A stretch of 64,000 nt of DNA, from positions 248,001 to 312,000 of the forward strand of contig NZ_FNWJ01000001.1 of NCBI RefSeq assembly GCF_900108055.1. The letters are read 5' to 3'. Origin of the DNA: Thermoleophilum album. Lineage in GTDB: Bacteria > Actinomycetota > Thermoleophilia > Solirubrobacterales > Thermoleophilaceae. Every line of letters begins with the position of its first letter. Position 1 is the stretch's first letter. Below, piece after piece: positions 11,743-53,729 of the stretch. Below the pieces are notes generated by a model. That model did no database searches, was not told where the DNA came from, and worked only from the letters and a program-made list of their open reading frames with translations. The translations under genes and the position numbers were made by a program.

Positions 11743-11812
11743 CTTCGTTTGCCCTTGCCGGGCGCTGATCCGCCGCGCTAGCGTCGGCGTAGTCGCACAG
11801 AGGAGGAGGCAG

Positions 11813-12019
11813 ATGGCCGTCACCAAGATCATTGAAGTCGTTGGTGCGTCGAAGGAAAGCTCCGACGCGGCCGTGAAGGCAGCTCTCGAAGAGGCTCGCA
11901 AGACGCTGCGCAACATCAAGGCGGTGGACGTCGTGTCGACCGGCCTGCGCGGCGAAAACCTCGACGAGTGGCGCGCGCTCGTGCGCATCTCGTTCCTCGT
12001 CGAGCGGGTGGAGGAGTAG
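11813..12019 (+). CDS. Dodecin family flavin-binding protein
   Basis: 68 residues, exactly the dodecin size. It begins VTKIIEVVGASKESSDAAVK and contains the conserved NIKAVDVVSTGLRGENLDEW, with the Trp that stacks on flavin, and ends in a strand, FLVERVEE. Dodecins form hollow dodecamers that store or buffer FMN/riboflavin, or CoA in some bacteria. A strong purine-rich ribosome site (GAGGAGGAGG) precedes the ATG. Neighbours include several flavin enzymes (LLM oxidoreductase, FMO, hydroxyacid oxidase), which fits flavin buffering. Confidence 0.92.
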   Translation: MAVTKIIEVVGASKESSDAAVKAALEEARKTLRNIKAVDVVSTGLRGENLDEWRALVRISFLVERVEE

Positions 12020-40433: not shown

Positions 40434-41606
40434 TCAGAACGTACCAGACTCCCTACCCACCGCGCTAGGGCCGTGCAACGACCGCTCGAGCACGCTCGTT
40501 CCGAGATCGCAAGCCCGGGGAACCCCACAGAGTGCCAACGACAGATCGAACTCGTCGATCAACAGCCGCAACACCCGTTCGACCCCAGCCGCGCCAGCAA
40601 CCGCTAGCCCCCAGAGCACCGGCCGTCCCACCAGCACCGCCCGCGCGCCGAGCGCCAATGCCTTGAGCACGTCGGTACCGCGACGGATGCCGCCGTCGAC
40701 CAAGACGTCGACCTCCTCGCCGACCTCTTCGACGACCTCCGGGAGCGCGTCGGCGGCCGCGCGAACACCATCGAGCTGACGACCCCCGTGGTTCGAGACG
40801 ACCACCGCCGCTGCGCCGCTAGCGATCGCGCGCCGCGCGTCTTCCGCCGTCAGCACTCCCTTGACCACCACCGGCAGGTCGCTGGTGCCGACCAGCTCCT
40901 CGAGGTCGCGCCACGTTAGCGAAGCGTCAAGAAGCTCGCCGATCGCGCGCATGTCGAGGCGCGCATCGGACTCGCCAACGGCCGCCGCCAGGCTCGGCAC
41001 CTCCAGTGCCGGCAGCGCGAAGCCGGTGCGCAGATCGCGCTCGCGCCGACCGAAGTAGGGCACGTCGACGGTCAGGAAGAGAGCACTGAAGCCGCTTGCT
41101 GCAGCCTCCTCGCAGAGCGCGCGGGTGACGCCGCGATCCCGGAACACGTAGACCTGGAACCACCGCGTCGCCTCCGGTGCGGCCTCAGCTATCTCGCTTG
41201 GCCGCGCCGTCGCGAGCGTCGACAGGCAAAGGGGGGCCTGCGCACGGGCCGCACCCGCCGCCGTCGCCTTCTCACCATCGGGATGAGCGAGACGGTGGAA
41301 CGCCGTCGGCGCCACGCAGATCGGGTGTGCGAGACGCTGGCCGAGGAAAGTCGTGGACGTATCACGCCGCGAGACGTCGACGAGCATCCGTGGCCGCAAA
41401 CGCAGGCGTGCCCACGCCGCCTCGTTGTCGCGCAGCGTGATCTCAGCGCCCGCACCGCCCGCGTAGTAGCCGAAGGTGCCGGGGTCAAGACGTTCCCGCG
41501 CGAGCTCCGCGAACTCCGCGAGCGTCGCCGGCAGCGGCGGCTGCTGCGGCGTCGACGCTCGTTGGCGGCGCCCGTCTCGCTCCTCGCTTCCCATTTGTCC
41601 GCTCAC
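40434..41606 (-). CDS. FMN-dependent alpha-hydroxy-acid oxidase/dehydrogenase family protein
   Basis: 390 residues. TIM-barrel FMN family marks: FGYYAGGAGAEITLRDNEAA, PICVAPTAFHRLAHPDGEKA, CLSTLATARPSEIAEAAPEA, ALFLTVDVPYFGRRERDLR, and catalytic SNHGGRQLDGVRAAADALPE, then VDGGIRRGTDVLKALALGAR. This is the lactate/glycolate oxidase type (lactate 2-monooxygenase, mandelate dehydrogenase). Substrate unresolved. The start overlaps the stop of the YhaN-like gene by 4 bases, so it is the last but one gene of a long minus-strand run. Confidence 0.92.
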   Translation of the reverse strand: MSGQMGSEERDGRRQRASTPQQPPLPATLAEFAELARERLDPGTFGYYAGGAGAEITLRDNEAAWARLRLRPRMLVDVSRRDTSTTFLGQRLAHPICVAPTAFHRLAHPDGEKATAAGAARAQAPLCLSTLATARPSEIAEAAPEATRWFQVYVFRDRGVTRALCEEAAASGFSALFLTVDVPYFGRRERDLRTGFALPALEVPSLAAAVGESDARLDMRAIGELLDASLTWRDLEELVGTSDLPVVVKGVLTAEDARRAIASGAAAVVVSNHGGRQLDGVRAAADALPEVVEEVGEEVDVLVDGGIRRGTDVLKALALGARAVLVGRPVLWGLAVAGAAGVERVLRLLIDEFDLSLALCGVPRACDLGTSVLERSLHGPSAVGRESGTF

Positions 41607-44329
41607 CTGCTGCCCTCCCCAGCTCGCTCTAGCGCTTGCGACGACGGCGCCGGCAACTCGATTACCTGACAGTCTGAATCCAACTCGCAGAGCGCAGCGA
41701 CGTGCGACCGCTCCTCGGCGAATAGCACGACTTGGCGCTCTCTCGACTCCTCGACGAGTTGCTCGAGCCCGGCACGGAGGCGCAGCGCATCGAAGCGATC
41801 GAAGGGATCGTCGAGCAGCAGCGGCGCTCGGCCGCTCCGCTGACCGCTGTGCGCGTTGCGGCTAGCCGCTTGCTCGTCCAGCAGCCGCGCGATGGCGAGC
41901 CGTTCGACCAGGTAGATCTGGTCGCGGGTGCCGCGGCTGAGCAGCTCAGCAGAGACCAGCGACCCGGTCTCCGGTGCCTCCACCGAAACCGCGAGATCCT
42001 CGGCAACCAACGCGCGCCGATAGCGCCCGCCGGTGATCCGCGGCAGCAGCCGCCCGAGCTCCTCGTTGAGCCGGGGCGCGAACTGGCGATGGGCGGCCGC
42101 GGCGGCCGCTCTGAGCTCCTCGATCGCCAGGCGCACAGCATCGCGTTGCAGCTCGATCATGCGGCACTCTTCGTCGATCTCGGCGATCGTCGCCCGCAGC
42201 TCAGCGGGATCGGAGAGCTGCCGTTCACGCGTCTGGATCTCGCGTTCCAGGCCGTGACGCCGGCGCTCGAGCTCGGCGAGTTGCGACTCGAGCTGGGCTA
42301 GCTGCCTGTCCGCCGCGTCGACCCGCAGTTCGAGGTCGGCGAGCGCCTCCGCCGGTCGACCATCGCCGTCGCTGGCTCCCGACGGGCTCGCGAGCTGCAT
42401 CTCCGTCGAGGTGGCGTGCTCCGCGAGCGCGCGAGCGAGCTCCTCGCGTTCGTGCTCGAGCTCGGCGAGCGGGCGCCCACGGGTGAGCGCACGCAGGGCT
42501 TCGGCAGCACGATCCGCATCGTGCAAAGCGCGTGCATCACGCTCGGCCGCCTCACGCAACTGCTCGAAGCCACGGAGCGCCTCGTGCAGATCGTGCTGCT
42601 CGATGCCGACGCTCGCGAGCGTCTGCCTGAGTGCCGCTTGCGCCTCCGCGAGGCGCTTCTGCGCGCGAGCCGCCTCGGCCGCGACCTCCTGGAGACGCTC
42701 GAGCTCGGCCCGTAGCCGCTCGCTGCGCTCAGCGAGCTCGAGCGCCCGCGCATAAGCCTCGGCACGCGCCAGAAGGTCGCCCGAGGCCGGCGCGCCGTGC
42801 GCGTCCAGGCACTCAGCGAGCTCCCGTTCTTCGCTGGCAAGCAGCTGCGCAGTCCGTGTGTGCGCATCGAGCTGCGCCTCCGCCCGGACAAGCTGGTCTT
42901 CTAGCGCGATCGCGTTCTCGACCCCCGCCTCGGCGAGGGTCTTCGCGAGGGCCCGGCGCGCCTGCCCTCGGCGAGCGAGCGCGACCGCCACCAGGGCGGC
43001 CGCTAGCACGAGCGCGGCGACCGCTGCGCCGACACCTACCGTCGCTACCAAGACAACCGCGCCAGCGGCGGCGCCGACGGCCCCTGCGAGCCACGCGCGC
43101 GAGGCACTTTGCAGCGAACGCTCTAAGTCGCGCAGTCGATCGCGCGCCGCGCGCAGCGCTGCCGCGCGCAAGCGGAGCGCGTCGGCGCCCTCACGTCCGG
43201 ATTCAAGTTCGGCGATCTCCGCGCGGCGCGCCTCGACCCGCGCGGCAAGCGCCCGTATCCGCTCCTGGCCGGCGGCGTTGGGCACGCCACCGGGGGCCAG
43301 CGACGCGAGCTCGCGCTCGAGTTGCTCGAGCTCCGTTTGCAGACGCTCGCCGCGTGCTCGCTCGGCCTCGGCGCGGCGCGTTGCCTCTGCGCACTCGCGT
43401 TCCGCGTTGCGCAGGTCGGCAGCCAAGCCAGCCACCGCGGCGGGCAGTTCACTCTTTAGCACGACCGGGCGCTGCGGGCGAGCGGCCGCTTTTTGCTCCA
43501 GCTCCCGCGCCCGCTCGAGCCGCGCGGTGGCATACCGCAAGCGCAGCGCCAGGTTCCGCCGGCGAGCTTCCGCGACGCTCGCGACCAGGCGTTCGCGTTG
43601 TTCGTCTAGTTCAGCGAGTTCGTGTGCCAACGCGCTGATCTCCGCGCGCTCCCGCTCGGAGCGCTCGAGCTCCGACTCGAGCTCCTGTTTGCGGCTCGAC
43701 AACTGTCCCCAACGGCCGCCGCGCGCCGGCTGCCAGTTGCGGAGATCGACTCCGAGCCGCTCCTTCGCGGCCCGCTCGAGCCGCCTGATCGCTTCCTCCA
43801 CGCTGCCAGCCTCACGCCCACTCTCGACCAGCGCCCGCAGGCGCTCCGCGAGCTGCGCGGCAGCGTCGTCGCTCGGTCGCTCGACATCCCCCTGACCGAG
43901 ACAGCAGACCTGGCGGAACTCCTCCGGCCCGAGGCCCAGCAAGACCTGACCGAGCGCGACCTCTCGACCCTTGGCCCGAAAGCGGTTACTGAGATCCGCC
44001 CCGGTGTGCGCGTCGAACACGCGCAGCTCGGGCTTCTCGAAGTTCCACTCGACACGCAGCGTGCGCCCCTCGCGGTCACTGATCTCCGCCAGCGCGCCGT
44101 ACTTGCGACCGCTTTGCCAAGGACGCCGCGCCTCCCACGGGGAGGGCCGTCCGTCGCGCCGCCGCGTGCGTTCGCTGCGGTTGAACCCGTAAAGGATGCG
44201 AAAGAGGAGCTCGTAAAGGGTGCTCTTCCCAGCCTCATTGGGGCCCGTGACGACCGTCAGTCGGGGGGCGAACTGGAAGCTCCCCGAGAGCCTGCCGAAG
44301 CCGTCGCACCGAACTGCCAAAAAACGCAC
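41603..44329 (-). CDS. Rad50/SbcC-like coiled-coil ATPase with central membrane hairpin (YhaN-type)
   Basis: About 909 residues from the GTG at 44329. Walker A VVTGPNEAGKSTLYELLFRI is near residues 20-40; the C-terminal ABC-type signature region is LLSRGTRDQIYLVERLAIAR and Walker B is PLLLDDPFDRFDALRL. Between them lie long Glu/Arg/Ala coiled coils. Residues ~410-455 are a strongly hydrophobic hairpin (AGAVGAAAGAVVLVATVGVG then VAALVLAAALVAVALARR), where Rad50 has a zinc hook. This matches B. subtilis YhaN, which is membrane-linked. The gene follows an Mre11-like nuclease with a 16-base gap. The pair likely handles DNA ends at the membrane; no direct evidence. Confidence 0.85.
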   Translation of the reverse strand: MRFLAVRCDGFGRLSGSFQFAPRLTVVTGPNEAGKSTLYELLFRILYGFNRSERTRRRDGRPSPWEARRPWQSGRKYGALAEISDREGRTLRVEWNFEKPELRVFDAHTGADLSNRFRAKGREVALGQVLLGLGPEEFRQVCCLGQGDVERPSDDAAAQLAERLRALVESGREAGSVEEAIRRLERAAKERLGVDLRNWQPARGGRWGQLSSRKQELESELERSERERAEISALAHELAELDEQRERLVASVAEARRRNLALRLRYATARLERARELEQKAAARPQRPVVLKSELPAAVAGLAADLRNAERECAEATRRAEAERARGERLQTELEQLERELASLAPGGVPNAAGQERIRALAARVEARRAEIAELESGREGADALRLRAAALRAARDRLRDLERSLQSASRAWLAGAVGAAAGAVVLVATVGVGAAVAALVLAAALVAVALARRGQARRALAKTLAEAGVENAIALEDQLVRAEAQLDAHTRTAQLLASEERELAECLDAHGAPASGDLLARAEAYARALELAERSERLRAELERLQEVAAEAARAQKRLAEAQAALRQTLASVGIEQHDLHEALRGFEQLREAAERDARALHDADRAAEALRALTRGRPLAELEHEREELARALAEHATSTEMQLASPSGASDGDGRPAEALADLELRVDAADRQLAQLESQLAELERRRHGLEREIQTRERQLSDPAELRATIAEIDEECRMIELQRDAVRLAIEELRAAAAAAHRQFAPRLNEELGRLLPRITGGRYRRALVAEDLAVSVEAPETGSLVSAELLSRGTRDQIYLVERLAIARLLDEQAASRNAHSGQRSGRAPLLLDDPFDRFDALRLRAGLEQLVEESRERQVVLFAEERSHVAALCELDSDCQVIELPAPSSQALERAGEGSR

Positions 44330-44345
44330 CCTCCCAACCCCCCGA

Positions 44346-45494
44346 TCACACCGGCTCGCCGCCGTCGAGCGCGCGCAAGCCGATCTCGAGCGCCAGTTCG
44401 GCAACCTCGCGATCGCGCCCGTCGGCCTGGCCGATGCGCTCCCGCAGGCTGCGGGCGAAGCGCCCACGCGCCGTGTCGAGCTGCGTGATCGCGTCGAGAT
44501 CGAAGGACCGCTGGGTGCGGTCGATCACGCGCACGCCGGCGAAGCGCTGCGTCAACATCGCTTGTAGATCCTCGAGATCGCGCTCCAATCCCGCTTCGCA
44601 GCTGCCGACGAGCGCAACCGTCAAAAACCCGCCGCCATCGCTCTCGCCGCCGGCGCCTTGTTGCGCGAGCGCTCTCGCGACCCGCTCTCGCAGCTCCGCC
44701 CGCGACGCCACCCCTTCGCAGTCAACCTCGAGGTACAGGCACGGCGGCCCGCCGAGCGGGACACCCTCGGCCTTTACCGAGGGCCCGTCGAGCTCCACCA
44801 CCACGACCCCGTGCGAGTGGGTCTCGTCGAAGGCGAGCGGGAACGGGGAGCCCGGGTAGACGACCGCTAGGCGCCCCTCGTGGGCGAGCAGCGCGGGTCG
44901 GTGGATGTGACCGCACAAGCAGAGATCGAAGCCCGCCCGATGTACCGCGCGGAGCTCAAACGGGCAGTGGCGATCAGCCGGCTCGCGGCCAGTCGTGCCG
45001 ACGGCTGTGCCGTGCAGCAAGAGCAGGTTCGGACCCTCTTCCTGGCGCGCGCAAGGGCGCTCGAGGAAAGCCGCGTGCAGCTCACCGCCGCCCCAGGAGA
45101 TGCCCCAGATCGTTGGTGCTGACGAGCCCTCGAGGGGCCGCCAGCGAGTGAGCTTGCCGGGCTCGAAGAGCCGCACGTTGGGGGGCAGATCGATGCGCTC
45201 CCAACTGCCGCCGGGAACGATCGGGTCGTGATTACCCGCGACGATCGCGACCGGCAGCTCCGTGCGTGCGAGCAGCGCCGCTAGCTCGCGGCGGGTGCTC
45301 TCGGTCACGTTCTCCTCTTCCCACAGATCGCCGCCGATCGTCAGCAGATCGCAGCGGTACTGTTCGGCCAGCGCCACGGCCTGCCCCAGCGTGGCGAGCA
45401 GGCGTCGCCGCAGGTGTTGCCGTCGCTCCGACGCGACGCCCACGAACGGCCGATCGAGATGGACGTCGGCGATGTGCAGGATCCGCACTCCCAC
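44346..45494 (-). CDS. Mre11/SbcD-like DNA repair exonuclease (YhaO-type)
   Basis: 382 residues. Calcineurin-like metallophosphoesterase motifs in order: RILHIADVHLDRPF, LLTIGGDLWEEENV, VAIVAGNHDPIVPGG, LLLLHGTAVG and LCLCGHIHRPALL. These are the metal-binding D-H, GD, GNH and GHxH sites. The C-terminal part (~ residues 230-380) is a helix-rich capping region. It forms a functional pair with the downstream YhaN-like ATPase. The start is well set; upstream the region is open toward a terminator. Confidence 0.88.
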   Translation of the reverse strand: MGVRILHIADVHLDRPFVGVASERRQHLRRRLLATLGQAVALAEQYRCDLLTIGGDLWEEENVTESTRRELAALLARTELPVAIVAGNHDPIVPGGSWERIDLPPNVRLFEPGKLTRWRPLEGSSAPTIWGISWGGGELHAAFLERPCARQEEGPNLLLLHGTAVGTTGREPADRHCPFELRAVHRAGFDLCLCGHIHRPALLAHEGRLAVVYPGSPFPLAFDETHSHGVVVVELDGPSVKAEGVPLGGPPCLYLEVDCEGVASRAELRERVARALAQQGAGGESDGGGFLTVALVGSCEAGLERDLEDLQAMLTQRFAGVRVIDRTQRSFDLDAITQLDTARGRFARSLRERIGQADGRDREVAELALEIGLRALDGGEPV

Positions 45495-45575
45495 CGCTGG
45501 CGATCCTGGCGAAAAAGGCGGACGTTGTGACCGCGCTTGGCGGTATCAGAAGACGCCGTCCGTCCGTATGAGCAC

Positions 45576-45609
45576 AAAAAGGGCGGGCGGGCATCTTGCC
45601 CGCCCGCCC
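45576..45609 (-). terminator. Strong intrinsic terminator after the ferritin-like gene
   Basis: GGGCGGGCGGGCA pairs perfectly with TGCCCGCCCGCCC (13 bp, loop TCT). On the minus strand the hairpin is directly followed by five Ts (bases 45576-45580). It lies 19 bases after the gene's stop and separates it from the YhaO-like gene. Confidence 0.9.
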
Positions 45610-45628
45610 GATTGCGCGACCGACTGTC

Positions 45629-46378
45629 TTAGCGGACGTTGAAGGTGTTGTTGCCGCGAACCTTCGGGGTGCGTCGCTTCACGACGTCGAAGTCGTAGAA
45701 GCGACCCGGCGACTTGCCCTTCTGTCCGAACCCGACCCCTGCGTCCTGAAGGAGCTTGACGGCGGTGTCGATCTGCGTAAACGCGTAGCGCATAAACACG
45801 CGGTCGTTTCCGAGCTTGCCGAGCGACTGGCGCGCGAGCGCCCGGTGCACGGCCTCGACGCCCATGAACTCCGCGGCGTAACGGGCGTTCTCACCCTGAC
45901 CAGCGTTGCCGAACACGGTCGTCGCGATCAGATATGCGTTGATGAACACCTGGTCGCCGAACTCAAGCGTGGTAAGCAGCCCCTTGCGGCTGGCGAACAC
46001 GGCGTCGGGCACCCAGATCTTCTTGGTCAGCTCCTTGCCGCCGATCTTGCGCAGCACCTTGTAGTGCTCGAGCTCCTGCTGTGCGGCCGCCGCGACGTTG
46101 CGCCGCGTCACGCGGTCGAGACCCCTTACGCGACGCGCACCCTCGGTGTTGATGATCGTCGCCAGCACCTCAGCGGTGGCGGCGATGTTGAGGATCTTCT
46201 GCGGGTCGTTCTGGGCGGTGATTGCCGCTACCGCGCGATCGTCGGCGACGAGCCCGAGCAAACCGAGGCTGCCGAAGGTCGCTGCTGCACCCTTGAGGAT
46301 GCCGCGCCGCGTGCTCGCGGTCTTGTCCTGCTCCTGCTCGTCGATGACCCGGTAAGCGAGCGAAATCGCTTCGGACAT
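45629..46378 (-). CDS. Tat-signal ferritin-like domain protein
   Basis: 249 residues. A twin-arginine signal: STRRGILKG, followed by a hydrophobic stretch (AAATFGSLGLLGLVA) and a charged break. The mature part is helical and ferritin-like: ILNIAATAEVLATIINTEGA, QQELEHYKVLRKIGGKEL (E-xx-H), EFGDQVFINAYLIATTVFGN, ARYAAEFMGVEAVHRALARQ (E-xx-H). These E...ExxH pairs suggest a di-iron site. It belongs to the PF13668-type group by pattern. The gene is in the same block as tatA-tatC-sigK-rskA, 191 bases after rskA, so Tat export of this protein is expected. Confidence 0.85.
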   Translation of the reverse strand: MSEAISLAYRVIDEQEQDKTASTRRGILKGAAATFGSLGLLGLVADDRAVAAITAQNDPQKILNIAATAEVLATIINTEGARRVRGLDRVTRRNVAAAAQQELEHYKVLRKIGGKELTKKIWVPDAVFASRKGLLTTLEFGDQVFINAYLIATTVFGNAGQGENARYAAEFMGVEAVHRALARQSLGKLGNDRVFMRYAFTQIDTAVKLLQDAGVGFGQKGKSPGRFYDFDVVKRRTPKVRGNNTFNVR

Positions 46379-46569
46379 TGCCGTGCTACCCCCTTCTCCG
46401 TCCTGGGCGGTTGTTTAGTTGCCGTCGCCCTGTCTTTGCGCACGGGAAGGCTCGGCGGATCACAAGAACCTCGTAAGCGGCCCCGTGTTCCCCTGCCTGG
46501 GAATCACCCCGTGCCCGGAGGAGTAGCCCGTGATGCCTTGGGCAAGCCCGGACCTAAGCGACTCGGAGC

Positions 46570-47319
46570 CTAGGAGCCGCGTTCGAACACGACAAGGGGC
46601 GGAGAGGTCGGCTGCACGCTTCCGCCCGCCGGTTCCTGGGTGATCATCAGGCGGTCACGGGGCTTCAGGCTCACCGGCACCTCGACCGCCCCATCGGACG
46701 CTACGAACATGGGTTCCGCCGGCCTCGGCGGGCTGCCCGGCGACTGCACCCAGACCTCGTAGACGCCGCTCTCGGGCGGTCGCGGCAAACCCCGCACCTC
46801 GATGCGAACGCTGCGCTCGTGGACGGTTGCGCGCGCTTGCGCACGACGGGCGACGGTTGGGTCGGTGATCCGACCGACGAGCTCCTGACCCCGCCGCTTC
46901 GCTCCGATCTGGCCCTCGAGGACCGTACCCAGACCGAACCCAACGGCGAGCATCACGAGCAGCACGCCGGCCAGCGCGAGCGGCCTGGCCGCCGGGATGA
47001 AGAGCTCGCGTAGGCGGCGCTTGGCCGACTCCGGCTGGTCGGCGGAGGCTCCGGCGGCGCGCAGCAGGCGCGCCTCCGCTCGCACCTCGCTTAGCACGCG
47101 CTCGCGCAGACGCCCTGGTGGCAGGCGTGGCGGTACCGCCTCGGCCAGCGCGCTGGCGGTAGCGATCAAGGCACCGGCTTCGGCGCAGCAGCGCTCGCAG
47201 GTCTCGCGGTGGCGCTCGACCCGTTCGCGCTCGCTCGCGGTCAGCGCCCCCAGCGCCCACGCGGCAAGCGTCTCCCGAACCCAGTCGTGTTCTCGTGTCG
47301 CGCTATCCACCGTGCTCAT
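46570..47319 (-). CDS. rskA: RskA-like anti-sigma factor with zinc motif
   Basis: 249 residues. The N-terminal zinc anti-sigma domain has HRETCERCC (HxxxCxxC). A single membrane helix (LALAGVLLVMLAVGFGLGTV) follows at ~113-133. The C-terminal extracytoplasmic domain has the RskA_C pattern (VYEVWVQSPGSPPRPAEPMF and RDRLMITQEPAGGSVQPTSP). It should bind and inhibit the adjacent ECF sigma factor until proteolysis releases it. It follows sigK after 15 bases on the same strand, the usual order for this pair. Confidence 0.92.
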   Translation of the reverse strand: MSTVDSATREHDWVRETLAAWALGALTASERERVERHRETCERCCAEAGALIATASALAEAVPPRLPPGRLRERVLSEVRAEARLLRAAGASADQPESAKRRLRELFIPAARPLALAGVLLVMLAVGFGLGTVLEGQIGAKRRGQELVGRITDPTVARRAQARATVHERSVRIEVRGLPRPPESGVYEVWVQSPGSPPRPAEPMFVASDGAVEVPVSLKPRDRLMITQEPAGGSVQPTSPPLVVFERGS

Positions 47320-47334
47320 CCGATCGGCACACCT

Positions 47335-47958
47335 TCATCGGGGCTCGAGCACCGCCTCGAACGCTCGCAGTTTCTCCAGCGCGAGGCGCATGCGACCTTT
47401 CACCGTTCCCACCGGAGCGCCGAGCAGCTCGGCGATCTCGGTGTGCGTGAAGCCGCCGTAGTAAGCCAGCTCCACGACTTTGCGCTGGTCCTCCGGTAGG
47501 GCCGCGAGTGCCTGACCCACCGCCCGCGCCCGCTCGCGGCGTAGCGTCTCGACTACCGGATCCTGCTGCTCCTCGGCGCTCGCGCGTTCGGGATCGCGAC
47601 CCGCACCGGCCTCCGGATCGAGCTCGTCGCTCGAGCGAAGACGTTCCTGAACCGCGCGCCTACGCAGCAAGTCGATCGCCCGGTTGTGGACGATCCGCAG
47701 CAACCAGGTGCGGACCGTGCCACGGCGTGCATCGTACGCCGAGGCGCCGCGCCAGGCCGAAAGCATCGCGTCTTACACGATGTCCTCGGCAACCTCGGTG
47801 CTGCCGGCAATCCGGTAGGCCAGCGAGTAAGCGGCCTGAGCGTGACGGTCGTAGATGACCTCGAAAGCCTCCGCAACTCCGCGCGCGGCGGCCTCGATCA
47901 GCTCTTCGTCGGCCAGCCGCTCCCAGCCGCTCGATTTGGGCGGAAAAATCCTCATCAC
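47335..47958 (-). pseudogene. sigK: ECF sigma factor SigK-like gene, interrupted by an in-frame TAA
   Basis: Read through, this is a normal ~206-residue ECF sigma: region 2 (ADEELIEAAARGVAEAFEVI, YDRHAQAAYSLAYRIAGSTE), then VAEDIV, stop, DAMLSAWRGASAYDARRG, TWLLRIVHNRAIDLL, and region 4 (LPEDQRKVVELAYYGGFTHT, EIAELLGAPVGTVKGRMRLA). The stop is TAA at 47773-47775 (codon 62), where homologues have Gln (EDIVQDAFLSAW), so one C to T change or read error explains it. A downstream ATG (47766) would give a region-2-truncated protein. The start overlaps the tatC stop by 4 bases, and rskA follows. Alternatives are stop readthrough or sequencing error. Confidence 0.85.
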
Positions 47959-48983
47959 GCGGAGCCTCCGGCGCTCGCCTCGGCGAGCCGCGCCGCGCGG
48001 GCCCGGCGGCGTTCGACGATCCGGCTGAGCACGATCCCCAGCTCGAACAGCAACACCATCGGCACCATTTCGATCAGCGTCGTGATCGGGTCGGTTCCGG
48101 GCAATAGTGCCGCGAGTACCGCGAGCACGACGATCGCGATCCGCCGATTACTGCGCAGCTGCTCTGAGCTCAGTACGCCGAGGGCGACCAGCCCCACCAT
48201 CGCGAGCGGTAGTTGGAACAGAAGCCCGGTAGCTAGCGCGGTGATCAGTACGAAGTGGTAGTAGCTACTCGCTTGCACGAGTGCGTCGAAAGCACCAGCG
48301 TTGAACTGCTGGAGGAACGCCACCGCGGTCGGCAACACGACGACGTAGGCGAACGCAACGCCGGCGACGAAAAGCGCCGGGGCGCCGACCACCAGCAGGC
48401 GTATGGCGCGGCGCTCATTCGGCGCGAAGGCCGGTGCGATGAACGCCCACGCCTGGTAGAGCAGCACCGGCAAGGTGAAGAGCAGCGCGAACTGGAAGGC
48501 GACGAGCAAGGTTTGAGTGAACGGCTCACCAAGACCGAGCGTCACCGGGCGCGTGTCTTGATCGCGAGCGGCTAGCCGTCTCGCCGCCGATCGCGTCTCG
48601 CGCACCGCATCGCTCAAGGCCTGCCGCTGACTCGCCGAAAGCGACCCGGCGCGCGCCAGTTCGGCGAGTGCTCGCGCCTGCCCGTCGAGCGCCTCCCGAA
48701 TTGTGCGGCGGAGCCGCTCCTCGCGGCCACTAAGTGAGGTCGGCGCCCGCTGGGCCTTGTTGGCCGCTCGGGCAAGCGGCTGGTTGAGCACCGACAGCAG
48801 AGGTCTGCTCTGCCACAGGCACACCGCGAACGCCAGGGCGAGCGCGCACAGGCAAACGATCAGGCGCGTGCGCAGCTCGTCGAGGTGCTCGACGAGCGTC
48901 AGGCGCTCGTCGTGCCCGACCGGCTTGAGAACCTTTTTCAACGTACCCCGCGAAGACACGAGCCGCGATTGGCGACGTCCCAA
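47955..48983 (-). CDS. tatC: Twin-arginine translocase subunit TatC with enlarged first periplasmic loop
   Basis: 342 residues versus ~250 for typical TatC. LTLVEHLDELRTRLIVCLCA is the conserved N-terminus and first helix. Between helix 1 and helix 2 (LLVAFQFALLFTLPVLLYQA) there are about 110 residues, including a ~65-residue charged helical insert (GREERLRRTIREALDGQARA and following). EPFTQTLLVAFQFALL, WAFIAPAFAPNERRAIRLLV, AFAYVVVLPTAVAFLQQFNA and LLPGTDPITTLIEMVPM match TatC. Start is a TTG; GTG at 48959 and TTG at 48941 are alternatives. It receives Tat signals in the membrane. Overlaps sigK. Confidence 0.9.
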   Translation of the reverse strand: MGRRQSRLVSSRGTLKKVLKPVGHDERLTLVEHLDELRTRLIVCLCALALAFAVCLWQSRPLLSVLNQPLARAANKAQRAPTSLSGREERLRRTIREALDGQARALAELARAGSLSASQRQALSDAVRETRSAARRLAARDQDTRPVTLGLGEPFTQTLLVAFQFALLFTLPVLLYQAWAFIAPAFAPNERRAIRLLVVGAPALFVAGVAFAYVVVLPTAVAFLQQFNAGAFDALVQASSYYHFVLITALATGLLFQLPLAMVGLVALGVLSSEQLRSNRRIAIVVLAVLAALLPGTDPITTLIEMVPMVLLFELGIVLSRIVERRRARAARLAEASAGGSA

Positions 48984-49027
48984 CCCTGGCTCGTTGGACT
49001 TAGCTGGCCGGCTACTGCGGTAGCGGC

Positions 49028-49306
49028 TCAGGCAGCGCCCGCGGCTCCCCGCTCGGAGCTGCTGGCCGTGGTTCTCGCCACCTTTTCAGTGTTGGCGGTA
49101 GGTGGCGTGTGGATCTCCCTGGCCGTCGCCAGCTCCTCTTCCAGCTCGACGGCCTCGCCGTCGTGCGTGTCGGAGCGCAGCGACTGGCGGAACTCGCGGA
49201 TCCCGCGTCCAACCGAGCGCCCGACCTCCGGCAGCTTGCGCGGCCCGAGCACGAGCAAAGCGATGATCAAGACCACGATGAGTTCCATCGGTCCGATGTT
49301 TGGCAT
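49028..49306 (-). CDS. tatA: Twin-arginine translocase subunit TatA
   Basis: 92 residues from the ATG at 49306 with an AGGGGGG site upstream. N-terminal helix and amphipathic region are classical: MPNIGPMELIVVLIIALLVL, GPRKLPEVGRSVGRGIREFR. The FG-type break is LGPRKLP. It forms the transport pore complex with TatC, 44 bases downstream. The acidic, Thr/Ala-rich tail is typical. First gene of the tatA-tatC-sigK-rskA run. Confidence 0.93.
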   Translation of the reverse strand: MPNIGPMELIVVLIIALLVLGPRKLPEVGRSVGRGIREFRQSLRSDTHDGEAVELEEELATAREIHTPPTANTEKVARTTASSSERGAAGAA

Positions 49307-49512
49307 GTTTCGACCCCCCTGACTGCTGGTTGGCTGCGATGCGCACCTAGCGCATCTGCGCCCTTCGCCTTTGCTTGCGCGCGGCGCACCCGTTCGGATC
49401 AGAGCTTGGCAGGTCGCGAGCCGAAAAGCGACCGGCCCACTGATCCGCTTGTAACCGGCCGACGTAGGCGGTAGCGGGAGGAAGTTCTCGACGCAACCCA
49501 AGGAGGTAGCTT

Positions 49513-50207
49513 GTGAGTCAGGCGAACCCGATCACCCCTGACCCGGATAGCGCGCTCGCGGAGCTCGCACGCGATCCGGTGTCGCGTAAGCGCTTCATGC
49601 GCATGGCCGGGCCCGGCGCCGCAGCCGCGCTCACGGTCCTGCTCGCCGCGTGCGGCGGCAAGGAGGAGGAGGAGGAGGAGGAGGAGGAGGAGGAGGAGGA
49701 GGAAAAGACGACCGCCGGCGGGGGGACGGCATCGCGCGGGGATCTCGACATCCTCAACTACGCGTTGACGCTGGAGTACCTGGAGACCGACTTCTACCGC
49801 AAGGTCAACGACGCGGGTCTCTTTTCGGGCAAGACCGCCGACCTGCTCAAGCGGTTCGGGGAGCACGAGGCACAGCACGTCGACGCGCTGCGCCAGACGA
49901 TCCGCCAGCTCGGCGGCAGCCCGTACGCAAGCCGCAGTTCCAGTTCCCAATGCGGGATCAGGCGAGCTTCCTCGAGTTGGCGCAGGCGCTCGAGGAGGTT
50001 GGCGTCGGCGCGTACAACGGGGCGGCACCCTCGATCAAGTCGAAGGAGGTGCTCGCTGCAGCGGGTGGAATCGTCCAGATCGAGGCCCGTCACGCGGCGG
50101 CGATCCGTGCTCTGCGCGGTCAGAACCCGACCCCGAACGGGGCCTTCGACAAGACCCTGACGAAGGAGGAGACCCTCAAGCAGGCGAAGCCCTTCATCAA
50201 GGGCTAG
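49513..50207 (+). pseudogene. Ferritin-like Tat/lipoprotein gene with a frameshift
   Basis: The first frame encodes a signal (DPVSRKRFMRMAGPG, then LTVLLAACGG with a lipobox Cys), a 14-Glu tract, and the first ferritin-like half (NYALTLEYLETDFYRKV, FGEHEAQHVDALRQTIRQLG). The second half is in another frame (KPQFQFPMRDQASFLELAQA, GGIVQIEARHAAAIRALRGQ). One base is missing near 49922-49925: adding a C or G (AGC CCC GTA CGC AAG CCG) restores one continuous protein of 231 residues. GTG start with AGGAGG ahead. Like the gene at 45629, it has E...ExxH iron-ligand pairs. Real mutation or sequencing error cannot be told here. Confidence 0.82.
49663..49704 (+). repeat. (GAG)n microsatellite encoding 14 Glu
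   Basis: Thirteen GAG triplets and one GAA, all in frame just after the lipoprotein Cys, in the ferritin-like gene. A pure 39-base triplet run. Confidence 0.97.
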
Positions 50208-50264
50208 CAGCAAGAGCTACGGGGCTTACCGCTCGCAAGAGTCGCGTTTCCCCCAGCGTGTGGG

Positions 50265-50294
50265 CCGCCCGCCGCGCGCAAGCGCGGCGGGCGG
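50265..50294. terminator. Convergent hairpin terminator with GCAA tetraloop
   Basis: CCGCCCGCCGCGC pairs with GCGCGGCGGGCGG (13 bp) around a GCAA (GNRA) loop. It lies between the ferritin-like gene end (50207, plus) and the MFS gene end (50301, minus), and could serve both. Neither side has a U-rich tail of note (TTCGCG on plus). Confidence 0.7.
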
Positions 50295-50300
50295 TTCGCG

Positions 50301-51911
50301 TTAAGGGACCACGAGTGGCTCGGCCGGCCTGCGTTCGTCTGCGGTTTGCGCATCGCTGACCGTTGGGCGCCGCCGCGGCAAAAGCCAGGCGACCAGGAAC
50401 GCAACCACGACCAGCGCGAGCGACCAAGTGAAGGCCGAGCCGAAGGCGTCGGCGAGCAGTGCGGCCACCCGCTCGCGCATTTCCGGCGGGATCTGGGCAG
50501 CGCCTTCGCCGCCGATGCGACCGCCGGCGGCGGCCGGTCCAAGGCGCTCGCGAATCGCGTTGGCAAGCGCCACCGACAGTAGGGCGGTGCCGAAGGAGGC
50601 CGCGACTTGCTGGGTGATGTTGAGCTGGGTGCTGGCGCGGGCCACCGAGCGCTTTTGGAGGGTCTGCATTGCGCCGGTGAAGAGCGGCATCATCGAGAGA
50701 CCCATGCCCAGTCCCATCACGAACAGCGCCCCGCATACCAGGGCGTACGGAGTGTCGGCCGCGAGCTGGGTAAAGACCGCGAACGCCGTGAAGACGAGCG
50801 GAGTTCCGGCGAAGACCAGCTTGCGCGTCGCGATCCGGTCGGCTAGTTGACCGGCGAGCGGCATCGCCAACATGGCGCCCACACCCTGCGGGATTAGCAG
50901 CAAGCCGGTGTGGAAGGCGTCCTCGCCGCGCACCGCTTGCAGGTACAACGGCACGAGGAAGAACCCGCCGAAGACCGCGATCACAAAGGCGAACAGCGTC
51001 GCGGTCGCCGCGCTGAAGGCACGGTTCTTGTAGAGGCGGAGGTCGACGAGCGGATCGCTCGCGCGCAGGCCGTGGCGAACGAAGTAGGCGAGCAGCGCCA
51101 AGCCGATCGCGAGCGGCACGAGCACCTTGGCGTGGCCGAAGCCGCCCTGACTGCCGGACTCGGCGAGGCCGTAAATGATGAGGGCGAGGCCGGGCGAGAG
51201 CACGAGCAGTCCAGGCAGGTCGAGCCGATGTAGCGGTTGCGGACGATCGGTGGGCAGGATCGCCAACGCCATCGCCACGGCGACGATCCCGACCGGCACG
51301 TTGATCAGGAAGATCCAGTGCCAAGAGGCGTGGTCGACAAGCCAGCCCCCGAGTATCGGGCCGACGATCGGCGCGATCAGCATCGGCACGCCGACGATGC
51401 TCATCACCCGGCCGAGGCGGTGCGGACCGGCCGCGCGGGTGAGGATCGTCATGCCGACAGGCATGATGAGACCGCCGCCAAGGCCCTGCAGAATCCGGAA
51501 CGCGATCAGCGACGTGTCCGACCAGGCGAGGCCGCAGAGCGCCGAACCGAGCGCGAACAGAGCGACCGAACCGACGTAGAGCCGCTTGGTGCCGAAGCGC
51601 TCGGACGCCCAGCCGCTGATTGGGATCACCGTCGCCAGCGCCAGCGTGTAGGCGGTGGCTACCCACTGGATCGTCGTCAGCGGCGACGAGAACTCCTCGG
51701 CAAGCGTGCGGATCGCGACGTTGACGATCGTCGTGTCGAGGATCGACATGAATGCGCCCACCACGACCACCGAGGCGAGCGCCAGCAAGCGGCGGTCGAC
51801 GTGGTCGGGCTTGTCGTGCCAGCCGTCGCCACGCTCCGCGTGGCGTGGTTCGCCGCCGACGTCCGTGACGGGCGGCGCGCCGCCGTACCCGTTCACCGAA
51901 AGCTCGCTCAA
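50301..51911 (-). CDS. MFS multidrug exporter, DHA2 (14-TM, EmrB/QacA) family
   Basis: 536 residues from the TTG at 51911. The start is set by a perfect ribosome site AAAGGAGGT (51916-51924) four bases before it; the open frame extends upstream but has no such site. Membrane motifs: FMSILDTTIVNVAIRTLAEE (motif D1), GWASERFGTKRLYVGSVALF (motif A), GGLIMPVGMTILTRA, and SIVGVPMLIAPIVGPILGGW (motif C). Fourteen helices, the size fits DHA2 proton-driven drug exporters. Divergent TetR gene with an operator between them, so the exporter is probably repressed by it. Confidence 0.92.
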   Translation of the reverse strand: MSELSVNGYGGAPPVTDVGGEPRHAERGDGWHDKPDHVDRRLLALASVVVVGAFMSILDTTIVNVAIRTLAEEFSSPLTTIQWVATAYTLALATVIPISGWASERFGTKRLYVGSVALFALGSALCGLAWSDTSLIAFRILQGLGGGLIMPVGMTILTRAAGPHRLGRVMSIVGVPMLIAPIVGPILGGWLVDHASWHWIFLINVPVGIVAVAMALAILPTDRPQPLHRLDLPGLLVLSPGLALIIYGLAESGSQGGFGHAKVLVPLAIGLALLAYFVRHGLRASDPLVDLRLYKNRAFSAATATLFAFVIAVFGGFFLVPLYLQAVRGEDAFHTGLLLIPQGVGAMLAMPLAGQLADRIATRKLVFAGTPLVFTAFAVFTQLAADTPYALVCGALFVMGLGMGLSMMPLFTGAMQTLQKRSVARASTQLNITQQVAASFGTALLSVALANAIRERLGPAAAGGRIGGEGAAQIPPEMRERVAALLADAFGSAFTWSLALVVVAFLVAWLLPRRRPTVSDAQTADERRPAEPLVVP

Positions 51912-51999
51912 CTCGACCTCCTTTCCGCTCCGCCTCCGACCGACTGCTCGCGGGGTGACGGCAAGGGAGTGACGGAACGCCGGCGAGGTTAGCAAAAGC

Positions 52000-52033
52000 G
52001 GAATTATTCCTTCCGATTGGAATCCTTAATTCC
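52000..52033. promoter_or_regulatory. Palindromic operator between MFS and TetR genes
   Basis: GGAATTA (52000-52006) and TAATTCC (52027-52033) are perfect inverted ends, with TTCCGATTGGAA (52011-52022) as an inner inverted repeat on the same centre. This AT-rich 34-base element sits 20 bases before the TetR GTG and 88 bases before the MFS start. Confidence 0.72.
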
Positions 52034-52052
52034 GGTTTGTAACCTTCGTCGC

Positions 52053-52697
52053 GTGACCAAGATCACGCTCCGTGCCGACGCCGCCCGCAACCGCGAGGCG
52101 TTGATCGAGGCCGCGGCGAAGGCTTTCGCCGAGCAGGGACTCGACGTGCCGGTCGAGGAGATCGCACGCCGCGCCGGCGTCGGAGTGGGCACCGTTTACC
52201 GCCACTTCGGGGGCAAGGAACAGCTGATCGACGCGATCCTCGATCAGCGCATCGGCGAGATGGCGGCGCTGGCCGAGAAGGCGCTGGCCGAGGACGACCC
52301 CTGGCAGGGCATCGTCACGTTCGTCGTCGAAGGGTTCGAAATGCAGGCGCGCGACCGGGCGCTCAAAGAGGTGTTGTTGTGTGCGAGCCGTGGCGGGGAG
52401 CGCATCGCCGCTGCGCGCGAGCGCCTTGCGCCGCTCCTCCGCGCGATCGTTACGCGCGCGCAGCAGGCTGGAGCGGTGCGGTCGGATCTCGAACCGACCG
52501 ACCTCTTCATGTTGCACCTGATGCTCGGCGCTGTTGCCGACTTCGCACGCGCCGAGGATGCGCAGCTGTGGCGACGCTACGTGCCGATCTTGCTGGGCGG
52601 TCTCGAACCCGGGAGAACAGGTGCAGACCCGCTCCCCCATCCGCCGCTCGACGACGAGCGCTTCGAGCGCGCGATGGCACGCTGGCACCGGCGTTGA
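52053..52697 (+). CDS. TetR-family transcriptional repressor
   Basis: 214 residues from a GTG at 52053 (a TTG at 52017 would run into the operator). N-terminal helix-turn-helix: NREALIEAAAKAFAEQGLDV, then VEEIARRAGVGVGTVYRHFG and GKEQLIDAILDQRI. The C-terminal ligand domain is helical (IVTFVVEGFEMQARDRALKE onward). It should repress itself and the divergent drug exporter until a ligand binds. Confidence 0.92.
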   Translation: MTKITLRADAARNREALIEAAAKAFAEQGLDVPVEEIARRAGVGVGTVYRHFGGKEQLIDAILDQRIGEMAALAEKALAEDDPWQGIVTFVVEGFEMQARDRALKEVLLCASRGGERIAAARERLAPLLRAIVTRAQQAGAVRSDLEPTDLFMLHLMLGAVADFARAEDAQLWRRYVPILLGGLEPGRTGADPLPHPPLDDERFERAMARWHRR

Positions 52698-52754
52698 ACG
52701 CAAGGTCGCGGCGCGGCTCGTCGCGATCACCGCGTGCCGCGTACACCCGGCAGG

Positions 52755-52892
52755 ATGCGCCTGAGCTTCAGTAAGGAGGTCCGGGCGTCGGCGCTGGCGC
52801 CGCTGGTGCGGGTGCTCTACGCGCCGCTCGTGCGCTCGGCGTTGGCGCGGCTCGCTGCGCTCGCCGAGGAGGAGCAACGGAGCGGCGCTTGA
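52755..52892 (+). CDS. Possible small helical protein, 45 residues
   Basis: ATG to TGA, 46 codons, starting MRLSFSKEV and continuing with alternating Leu/Ala/Arg (LVRVLYAPLVRSALARLAAL) into EEEQRSG, a likely amphipathic helix. It ends 6 bases before the DUF429 start, so could be an upstream member of that operon. No family; coding status is uncertain. Confidence 0.3.
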   Translation: MRLSFSKEVRASALAPLVRVLYAPLVRSALARLAALAEEEQRSGA

Positions 52893-52898
52893 CCGGCC

Positions 52899-53729
52899 GT
52901 GGCTAGCGTGCTGGCGACCGGCGTGGATGGCGCGCCGGGAGGTTGGGTCGCTGCCGCTGCCAGCGCCGATTCGCCCTCTCGGACGGAGCTTGTGACGGCT
53001 TCGTCGTTCGCCGAGCTCGCGACCTGGCACAGAGAGCGGGCGGCGGCGGCCGCCGCGCCGCTGGCGCTCGACCTGCCGGTGGGGTTGCCCGAGCGCGCCG
53101 AGCTGCGTGTGGCCGACCGGGTGGCGCGTGCCCGCCTGCGCGCGGCGGGAGCGTCCGCCGCGAGCGTCTTCCCGCCACCCGCACGTTGGATGCTCGCGTA
53201 CGCCCACGACTACGCCGCCTTGCGGCGGGCGGTAGCTGCGCGCCGGCGCGCGGGGTCTCGCGAGCCCGGGCTTAGCGCTCAGGCAGCGGCATTGATCGCG
53301 AAGGTGCGAGAGGTCGACGAGTCCGTGCGGACCCTGCAAGCCACCGGCGCGCAACCCTGGCGGTGGCTTTGGGAGTGTCATCCTGAGCTCAGCTTCTTGC
53401 TACTGGCCGCGCGCCAGGGGATGGCAGGGCCGCTCCCCGCGAAGGCCACAGCCGCCGGTGCGCTGCTGCGGCTGCGGCTCGTGAGGGCGGAGTTCCCAGA
53501 TGCCGAGGAGCGAATCGTGGGTCTCACCGAGCGGGGTCGGCGAGCGCCGAGGCGGCCGGCGGCACACCGCTCCGGTAAGAGCGCTCGCCCCGCACCAAAG
53601 CCGGCGCTCGCCGACTGCCTCGACGCGTACGCCGCGCTCTTCACCGCGCTGCGGATAACCCGCGGCGAGCAGGAGACCCTGGGTGGCGCGTGCGACGCCT
53701 GCGGCGTCCCGATGCGCATCGCGGTGTGA
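52899..53729 (+). CDS. DUF429-domain protein
   Basis: 276 residues from a GTG. ATGVDGAPGGWVAAA is the family's N-terminal motif, followed by APLALDLPVGLPERAELR, SVFPPPARWMLAYAHDY, LWECHPELSFLLLAARQG (His-Pro-Glu) and LADCLDAYAALFTALR (Asp-Ala). The fold is RNase H-like; DUF429 members are predicted nucleases without defined targets. Arg/Ala-rich insert near 215-235. It is followed by a hairpin whose T-run faces the convergent gene. Confidence 0.78.
   Translation: MASVLATGVDGAPGGWVAAAASADSPSRTELVTASSFAELATWHRERAAAAAAPLALDLPVGLPERAELRVADRVARARLRAAGASAASVFPPPARWMLAYAHDYAALRRAVAARRRAGSREPGLSAQAAALIAKVREVDESVRTLQATGAQPWRWLWECHPELSFLLLAARQGMAGPLPAKATAAGALLRLRLVRAEFPDAEERIVGLTERGRRAPRRPAAHRSGKSARPAPKPALADCLDAYAALFTALRITRGEQETLGGACDACGVPMRIAV

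Follow-up and report, generated by a model that had tools for sequence, protein, structure and literature searches.

Why should the genes of a twin-arginine translocase (Tat) share an operon with an extracytoplasmic function (ECF) sigma factor and its anti-sigma factor, with ferritin-like genes on both sides? This arrangement occurs in Thermoleophilum album within the stretch of 64,000 nucleotides analyzed here, which we call the window (G000:C1:248001-312000, in a genome of 2.2 Mb). An earlier note on this DNA had proposed a self-contained module in which envelope stress, related to iron or redox, raises the Tat machinery together with its iron-binding cargo. Our analysis indicates that the cluster is real and recurrent and that it is apparently a regulon. 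Probably a small ECF sigma regulon is encoded here, in which SigK, paired with RskA, would drive promoters of the type TGATCC-N16-CG(T/C)A in front of tat-sigK-rskA, of the ferritin-like gene ferD and of the divergent ferritin-like gene or genes.

The genes tatA, tatC, sigK, rskA and ferD follow one another on the reverse strand, an intrinsic terminator closes the run and a ferritin-like gene is read divergently from tatA (Table 1). The first four are indeed collinear, as the earlier note had described, with a gap of 44 bases between tatA and tatC, an overlap of 4 bases between tatC and sigK and a gap of 15 bases between sigK and rskA. The window proteins match the families TatA_B_E, TatC, Sigma70_r2/r4, RskA_C with zf-HC2, and PF13668 (Ferritin_2); for this search the TAA codon within sigK was taken as Gln. 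The name sigK was given by similarity only: the closest solved sequence to the SigK of the related genome G002 is 4nqw (E 3e-24), the SigK of Mycobacterium tuberculosis, and the second-closest solved protein is RpoE of Rhodobacter sphaeroides. Ferritin-like genes with Tat-type signals had been noted on both sides of the operon, which is correct for FerD with its TRRGILKG; the divergent protein carries SRKRFMR and a lipobox-like LLAAC, where SRKRF offers R-K and no twin arginine. Two genes that had been regarded as whole are not: sigK contains an in-frame TAA at codon 62, and the divergent ferritin-like gene is a frameshifted chimera of two tandem genes and not one open frame.

The indication of a common control comes from the intergenic regions, which were aligned for the three genomes of the genus, namely that of the window, G002 and G082. 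The latter two are the same-genus members of our sample of the order, G082 being a metagenome-assembled genome (MAG) named 'Bacterium HR41' (HRbin41). The sequence TGATCC, followed by 16 bases and CGTA or CGCA, precedes all three transcription units. In front of the divergent ferritin-like gene, the CGTA ends 46 bases 5' of the GTG start codon. The genome of the window contains seven matches to TGATCC-N16-CGYA, three of which belong to this locus, and one match to the reversed pattern. No sigma-70-like promoters were found over 44300-50600, and Rfam gave no match at its gathering threshold over 41000-53000.

The pattern is closely tied to these genes in other genomes as well. Within 109 non-redundant loci (1.44 Mb) the CGTA form occurs 27 times and the reversed control not at all. 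Twenty-five of the 27 matches lie upstream of a gene for a ferritin-like protein (12), TatA (10) or SigK (3), at 13-227 bases from its conserved part, and 10 of the 13 matches to the CGCA form are likewise placed upstream of fer, tatA or sigK. These upstream windows make up 2.4% of the strand space, which corresponds to a binomial probability of ~1e-38, a value that is overstated since the loci are related. One of the two leftover CGTA matches lies in the window, 21 bases ahead of a dodecin gene; the other, near the end of a G148 contig, is identical over 26 bases to a site of the same genome that precedes a pair of fer genes on a different contig. Spacers from 8 to 24 other than 16 give zero or one upstream match, and none of 40 permuted patterns exceeds three (mean 0.125).

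A CGYA site upstream of tatA was found in eight of 14 tat loci linked to fer or sigK-rskA and in five of 56 unlinked loci (Fisher p 0.0003). Six genomes of family f2 with two clear tat loci (G066, G098, G122, G132, G145, and G148) have the site in one locus only, as judged from the stretches fetched; in G066 it precedes sigK of the same gene run. G139 was excluded from this count, its tat pieces being spread over several contigs. In six loci (L047, L051, L090, L184, L186, and L213) the site stands before sigK of a sigK-rskA pair, a placement that fits ECF autoregulation. Across 13 whole genomes, including G002 and G082, the CGTA pattern was matched 77 times and the reversed pattern six times; in the part whose surroundings were examined, the matches include sigK-rskA pairs (L184, L186, and L213) and fer genes (L185, L215, and L217). 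Among the genomes labeled Bacillota, the sole match in the 3.9 Mb of G534 precedes fer beside sigK-rskA, and three of eight matches in G535 precede fer genes, one of them that of a fer-tatA-tatC run. G537 has no promoter match, and G536 has two, neither of them in its cluster. The labels of these MAGs are possibly wrong; locus L150 of G534 has a GC content of 74%.

The full gene order is the same in G000, G002 and G082, all three genomes of the genus examined, with the contig of G082 ending after ferD. Rearranged versions were detected in other families of the order, elsewhere in the Thermoleophilia and, in part, also in MAGs labeled Bacillota. They comprise sigK-rskA-tatA-tatC-fer (L051, with which L146 is grouped), fer-fer-sigK-rskA-tatA-tatC with a divergent fer (L136), fer-fer-tatA-tatC-sigK-rskA (L144), tatA-sigK-rskA-tatC with fer on the opposite strand (L074), sigK-rskA-fer without tat (L090 and L147), the cluster genes without fer (L047), the gene set in another order (L148) and fer-tatA-tatC (L191, in a MAG labeled Bacillota). 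Smaller combinations are tatA-tatC with fer (L078, L066, L110, L039, and L055, the last also with an unrelated sigma factor) and fer with tatA without tatC (L087; L081 with a sigma factor and no RskA; L089/L141 of Svornostia abyssi, where sigK-rskA lies ~5 kb off).

TatC is encoded beside five and SigK with RskA beside ten of 40 ferD-type loci from named genomes (flanks up to 9 kb), seven of the 40 being duplicates of loci already in the set. From the other side, 14 of 70 TatC loci have a ferritin-like gene or sigK with rskA within 6 kb and 56 have none, in a set deliberately enriched for second copies and relatives. The label 'linkage or promoter' needs nine changes on the TatC tree, at least eight of them forced by supported branches; the association was thus assembled several times. 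When viral contigs were searched for TatC, 15 stretches matched a pattern and none encodes a relative.

Table 1. Positions of the genes, promoter sites and terminator discussed in the text, counted from the first base of the window.
Feature	Position	Strand	Remarks
Fourth promoter match, TGATCC-N16-CGTA	11766..11791	+	21 bases 5' of dodecin gene
Dodecin gene (PF07311), likely further member	11813..12019	+	followed by EgtB-like ORF (DinB_2 + FGE-sulfatase) from 12044
Intrinsic terminator-like hairpin, strong	45581..45609	-	3' of ferD, before sbcD
ferD, Ferritin_2 (PF13668)	45629..46378	-	Tat-type signal TRRGILK; likely dinuclear-site residues
Promoter TGATCC-N16-CGCA of ferD	46437..46462	-	kept in G002 and G082
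rskA, anti-sigma factor gene	46570..47319	-	HxxxCxxC zinc motif (HRETCERC at residue 37) and RskA_C domain
ECF sigma factor gene, SigK-like	47335..47958	-	interrupted by TAA at 47775-47773
tatC	47955..48983	-	PF00902; start codon uncertain
tatA	49028..49303	-	PF02416; TIGR01411 above cut-off
Promoter TGATCC-N16-CGCA of tatA-tatC-sigK-rskA	49376..49401	-	kept in G002 and G082
Promoter TGATCC-N16-CGTA of divergent ferritin-like gene	49441..49466	+	kept in G002 and G082
Divergent Ferritin_2 lipoprotein-like gene	49513..50207	+	ferA/ferB chimera, frame change near 49920; GTG start

In the genome of the window itself the regulon looks damaged, with a nonsense codon in sigK and a chimeric ferritin gene. 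The codon that reads TAA here is CAG in G002 and CAA in G082, and sigK is intact in both. At the divergent position these two genomes carry the tandem genes ferA and ferB; the 5' half of the window gene is 78-79% identical to their ferA, its 3' half 85-86% to their ferB. It may well be that both lesions are assembly or sequencing errors and that the locus is intact in the organism: each is single and local, each affects a gene whose counterparts in G002 and G082 are whole, and a tandem gene pair is prone to assembly collapse. Against this, the ferA-ferB junction falls in a stretch shared by both genes, as in a recombination, and 17 of 23 ORFs of G002 compared with the window were clean. Six ORFs were flagged for a stop or frame change: two are the chimera and the ORF opposite to it, in three the stop belongs to an extended start or to a shadow ORF across a window ORF that is itself intact, and the sixth is L095:11476. 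Because well-conserved genes are otherwise intact, we lean slightly toward real lesions.

For the presumed cargo a structure was predicted. In this model FerD forms a ferritin-like helix bundle (mean pLDDT 80.5), the best structural matches of which are three RvY_06210 entries (Z 16.6-16.8), a mini-bacterioferritin (16.2) and Dps (~15), values that have to be read with the ease in mind with which helical bundles reach high Z. These matches derive from a VIA re-examination of the Foldseek list; Foldseek alone gave none at E 0.001 or better, and the FerD sequence gave none among solved structures at E 0.1 or better. FerD exceeds the gathering cut-off of PF13668 (34.7 vs. 24.7 bits), and its paralogs in G002 reach 139 and 145 bits. 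The residues of a likely dinuclear site are E70, E102xxH105, E139xxD142 and E175xxH178. Invariant in 23 aligned ferritin-like proteins are the first Arg of the signal, E70, L72, E102, H105, Y149, E175 and H178. This first Arg is followed by Arg in 14 and by Lys in one of the 23, as counted in the alignment; an automatic signal count (45 RR, 1 RK, 26 other, 15 none; n = 87) was set aside since it missed obvious signals, such as that of FerD in the window, and took some chance matches.

The bundle, the full set of likely metal-binding carboxylates and histidines and the presence of Dps and bacterioferritin among the matches would suit a regulon that serves iron, the exported ferritins storing or oxidizing it. 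We consider this doubtful. The best structural match, RvY_06210, is RvFeMP-1 (Z 16.8 vs. ~15 for Dps), which, like Deinococcus DRB0118, is a PF13668 phosphatase of metabolites including damaged nucleotides (PMC11616004). The characterized PF13668 proteins are dinuclear-metal metabolite phosphatases, and the family spans animals, fungi, plants and bacteria, with its physiological role and regulation left open (PMC11616004). In view of the likeness to RvFeMP-1 and the phosphatase family, iron storage is therefore one possibility and not the default. The promoter is moreover of an oxidative-stress type: the consensus TGATCC-N16-CGTA is printed for PSPTO_1043, an RpoE-ChrR homolog responding to singlet oxygen and tert-butyl hydroperoxide (PMC5507510), and the RpoE2 sites of Shewanella are the same promoter with mapped starts (PMC4336711).

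Several observations weigh against a regulon of SigK, Tat and ferritin-like cargo. In eight of the 23 aligned ferritin-like signals the first Arg is followed by a non-basic residue, so that a second basic one is lacking. The compared loci were partly picked by their similarity to TatC or ferritin, many whole-genome matches precede unrelated genes (e.g., an ABC transporter or an integrase), and 51 of the 70 tat loci have neither such neighbors within 6 kb nor a site upstream of tatA. The clusters L144 and L148 hold the genes without TGATCC-N16-CGTA; these motif-less clusters, from other Thermoleophilia, span 8.6-13.6 kb and 8.3-11.4 kb of their loci. The sigma factor of L150, which has the promoter alongside, branches outside the group that contains the window's SigK, and PF08281 (region 4) has 20 matches in the genome of the window. 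Finally, sigK is broken here, yet all three promoters of the locus are intact, which means recent damage, a sequence error or another sigma factor reading the sites.

In the last case the sites would be a genuine ECF promoter of a different sigma factor, with sigK-rskA merely one target and neighbor. The interrupted sigK, the other region 4 proteins and the use of an identical promoter by ChrR-partnered sigma factors elsewhere (PMC5507510, PMC4336711) are compatible with this explanation, which is nevertheless improbable. ChrR (TIGR02451) was above the cut-off in none of 15 genomes. Six weak matches came from five genomes, and five of these matches (in G002, G082, G066 and G534, plus one of the two in G109) correspond to RskA genes of the loci described here. 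The sites also precede sigK itself in the six loci named above, in the manner of autoregulation. In the sigma tree the window's SigK falls into a group of 13 rows from motif-bearing loci, with moderate support (93/77) and with two of the 13 rows being the window gene itself; the sigma factors of the motif-less L144, L148, L088 and L089 branch outside this group, but so does that of the motif-bearing L150. That actinobacterial tatAC merely lies beside an unrelated sigma operon and ferritin-like genes and was kept there by descent in one order is highly improbable, for although the 51 tat loci without neighbors or site and the rarity of ferD-type proteins (10 of 396 genomes at phylum level, E 1e-10) would suit it, the repeated assembly on the TatC tree, the recurrence in differing orders and orientations and a promoter enrichment restricted to these genes and one spacer length strongly disfavor it.

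Further members of the regulon may lie elsewhere. A fourth site precedes the dodecin gene of the window; the corresponding element in G002 differs (TGATCT-N17-CGTA). Protection of flavin and ergothioneine, by dodecin and the EgtB-like ORF, would fit a photo-oxidative regulon. In G148 (L216) the promoter precedes an operon amine oxidase-DUF1365-CMAS-CMAS-DUF1295, and an amine oxidase gene is also preceded by it in G139. The core regulon of RpoE-ChrR includes an amine oxidase and cfa, and the amine oxidase genes under the promoter in L213 and L216 suggest that family f2 may have a core regulon of this type in the absence of ChrR. As far as surroundings were examined, core-regulon genes were not seen near the seven promoter matches of the window's genome.

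Some observations concern the Tat components and the vicinity. TatC has a single match in the whole genome of the window and TatA two. The window's TatC contains an insertion of ~70 residues (residues ~71-145) between membrane segments 1 and 2, which also occurs in the long TatCs of family f2 and is missing from most TatCs of family f1, the window's own. In the promoter-linked TatCs of L051, L047, L074, L078 and L072 the glutamate of the ERR motif (E103 in Escherichia coli) is Ala or Gln, and two cargo signals linked to TatCs of this type carry a single Arg (TRLGFL and TRLSFL). The second tatA (G000:C1:1207768-1208938, L219) adjoins two weak ferritin-like matches, neither of which reaches the cut-off of Pfam, so that both tatA genes of the genome sit near ferritin-like genes. 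Its counterpart in G002 lies at C1:1557877-1559265 (L220); the ferritin-like signals of both loci end in a lipobox-like TAGC or AAGC, and neither locus has the promoter, the stretch 1207768-1208938 of the window's genome containing no match to TGATCC-N16-CGYA. A DHA2-type efflux gene flanks the cluster at 50301-52697 of the window, accompanied by TetR in the window's genus, and another is divergent from sigK in G066 (L047, 3474-4925).

In the mechanism that we propose, SigK would be held by RskA, a membrane-spanning zinc anti-sigma factor. Damage to the envelope or oxidants, most likely a stress of the singlet-oxygen or peroxide type, would release it, presumably by proteolysis of RskA as with other membrane anti-sigma factors. 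SigK would then act at three sets of promoters, those of the tat-sigK-rskA operon, of ferD and of the divergent ferritin-like gene or genes, so that the cell would make more translocase and more dinuclear-metal PF13668 proteins with Tat-type signals. Tat would export these folded with their metals, and outside the membrane they may dephosphorylate damaged metabolites or work as enzymes that handle metals or peroxides, and so protect the envelope.

The main idea of the earlier note thus survives in changed form, as a regulon in which a stress sigma factor would control Tat together with the presumed cargo and for which oxidative control is the better guess than iron. Synteny in several genera, which the note had set as its test, was found, the genus sharing one order and pieces of it occurring in other families and genera. 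That stress raises Tat and cargo together is backed by a promoter that is shared, kept in the genus and found at the same genes elsewhere, although the iron cue is unproven, given that the characterized PF13668 proteins are dinuclear-metal phosphatases (PMC11616004) and that the promoter points to singlet-oxygen or peroxide stress (PMC5507510, PMC4336711). The module is self-contained only in part, with the dodecin gene of the window and the G148 amine oxidase operon lying under the same promoter.

The hosts are bacteria of soils and hot springs that belong to a single actinobacterial class, and in them an alternative sigma factor and its membrane inhibitor appear to switch on an export machine with presumed ferritin-like cargo. 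As a tentative generalization, the Thermoleophilia and some lineages labeled Bacillota might possess an undescribed oxidative-stress regulon, with an RskA-controlled sigma factor that uses the RpoE-ChrR promoter code, a stress-dedicated Tat and an exported PF13668 set. Genomes with two Tat systems would then have one for housekeeping and one in the regulon, while the window's genus would have kept only the stress-type Tat. If true, an ECF stress sigma factor would here induce a Tat translocase along with the proteins that it exports, and PF13668 would gain a concrete stress regulon and an export route. The RpoE-ChrR promoter is moreover coupled here, in Actinomycetota, to an anti-sigma factor of another type. 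Its specificity allows regulon members to be predicted in each genome separately, and the regulon idea is therefore directly testable.

In the open-access literature no regulon of Tat, sigma factor and ferritin-like genes of this type was found, a weak negative as this search did not extend to ECF classification papers and supplements. The ECF11 group with RpoE-ChrR (R. sphaeroides, P. syringae PSPTO_1043, Shewanella RpoE2) has the same promoter, TGATCC-N16-CGTA, with two of the three window sites reading CGCA; the pairing of a sigma factor with a zinc anti-sigma factor is also alike, as may be the amine oxidase operon of G148. In contrast, the anti-sigma factor here is RskA-like and membrane-spanning, no ChrR reaches the cut-off, and the targets include tat and PF13668 genes; in three papers on RpoE-ChrR-type sigma factors checked for it, the word 'ferritin' was not found. 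RvFeMP-1 and DRB0118 belong to the same Pfam family as FerD, RvFeMP-1 being its best structural match, and show a similar E/ExxH/ExxD pattern by sequence, without superposition. FerD differs from them in its Tat-type signal, in having Ferritin_2 as the only domain found, with no IgG-like domain, and in an identity of 14-15%. With SigK-RskA of M. tuberculosis, the source of the closest solved sigma factor, the locus has in common an RskA_C domain with an N-terminal zinc finger encoded beside an ECF sigma factor. SigK of M. tuberculosis has a cysteine-based redox switch, and its targets and promoter differ from those found here; the SigK proteins of the window, G002 and G082 contain no cysteine, so that a redox switch of this type is not possible. 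In Bacillus subtilis, TatAyCy is reportedly linked with YwbN/EfeB and TatAdCd with PhoD. As in these cargo-linked Tat systems, the tat operon described here is encoded together with its presumed cargo, and the two are joined by Tat-type signals, synteny and a shared promoter sequence; control would differ in being exerted by an ECF sigma factor of the same operon, and the cargo in consisting of PF13668 proteins.

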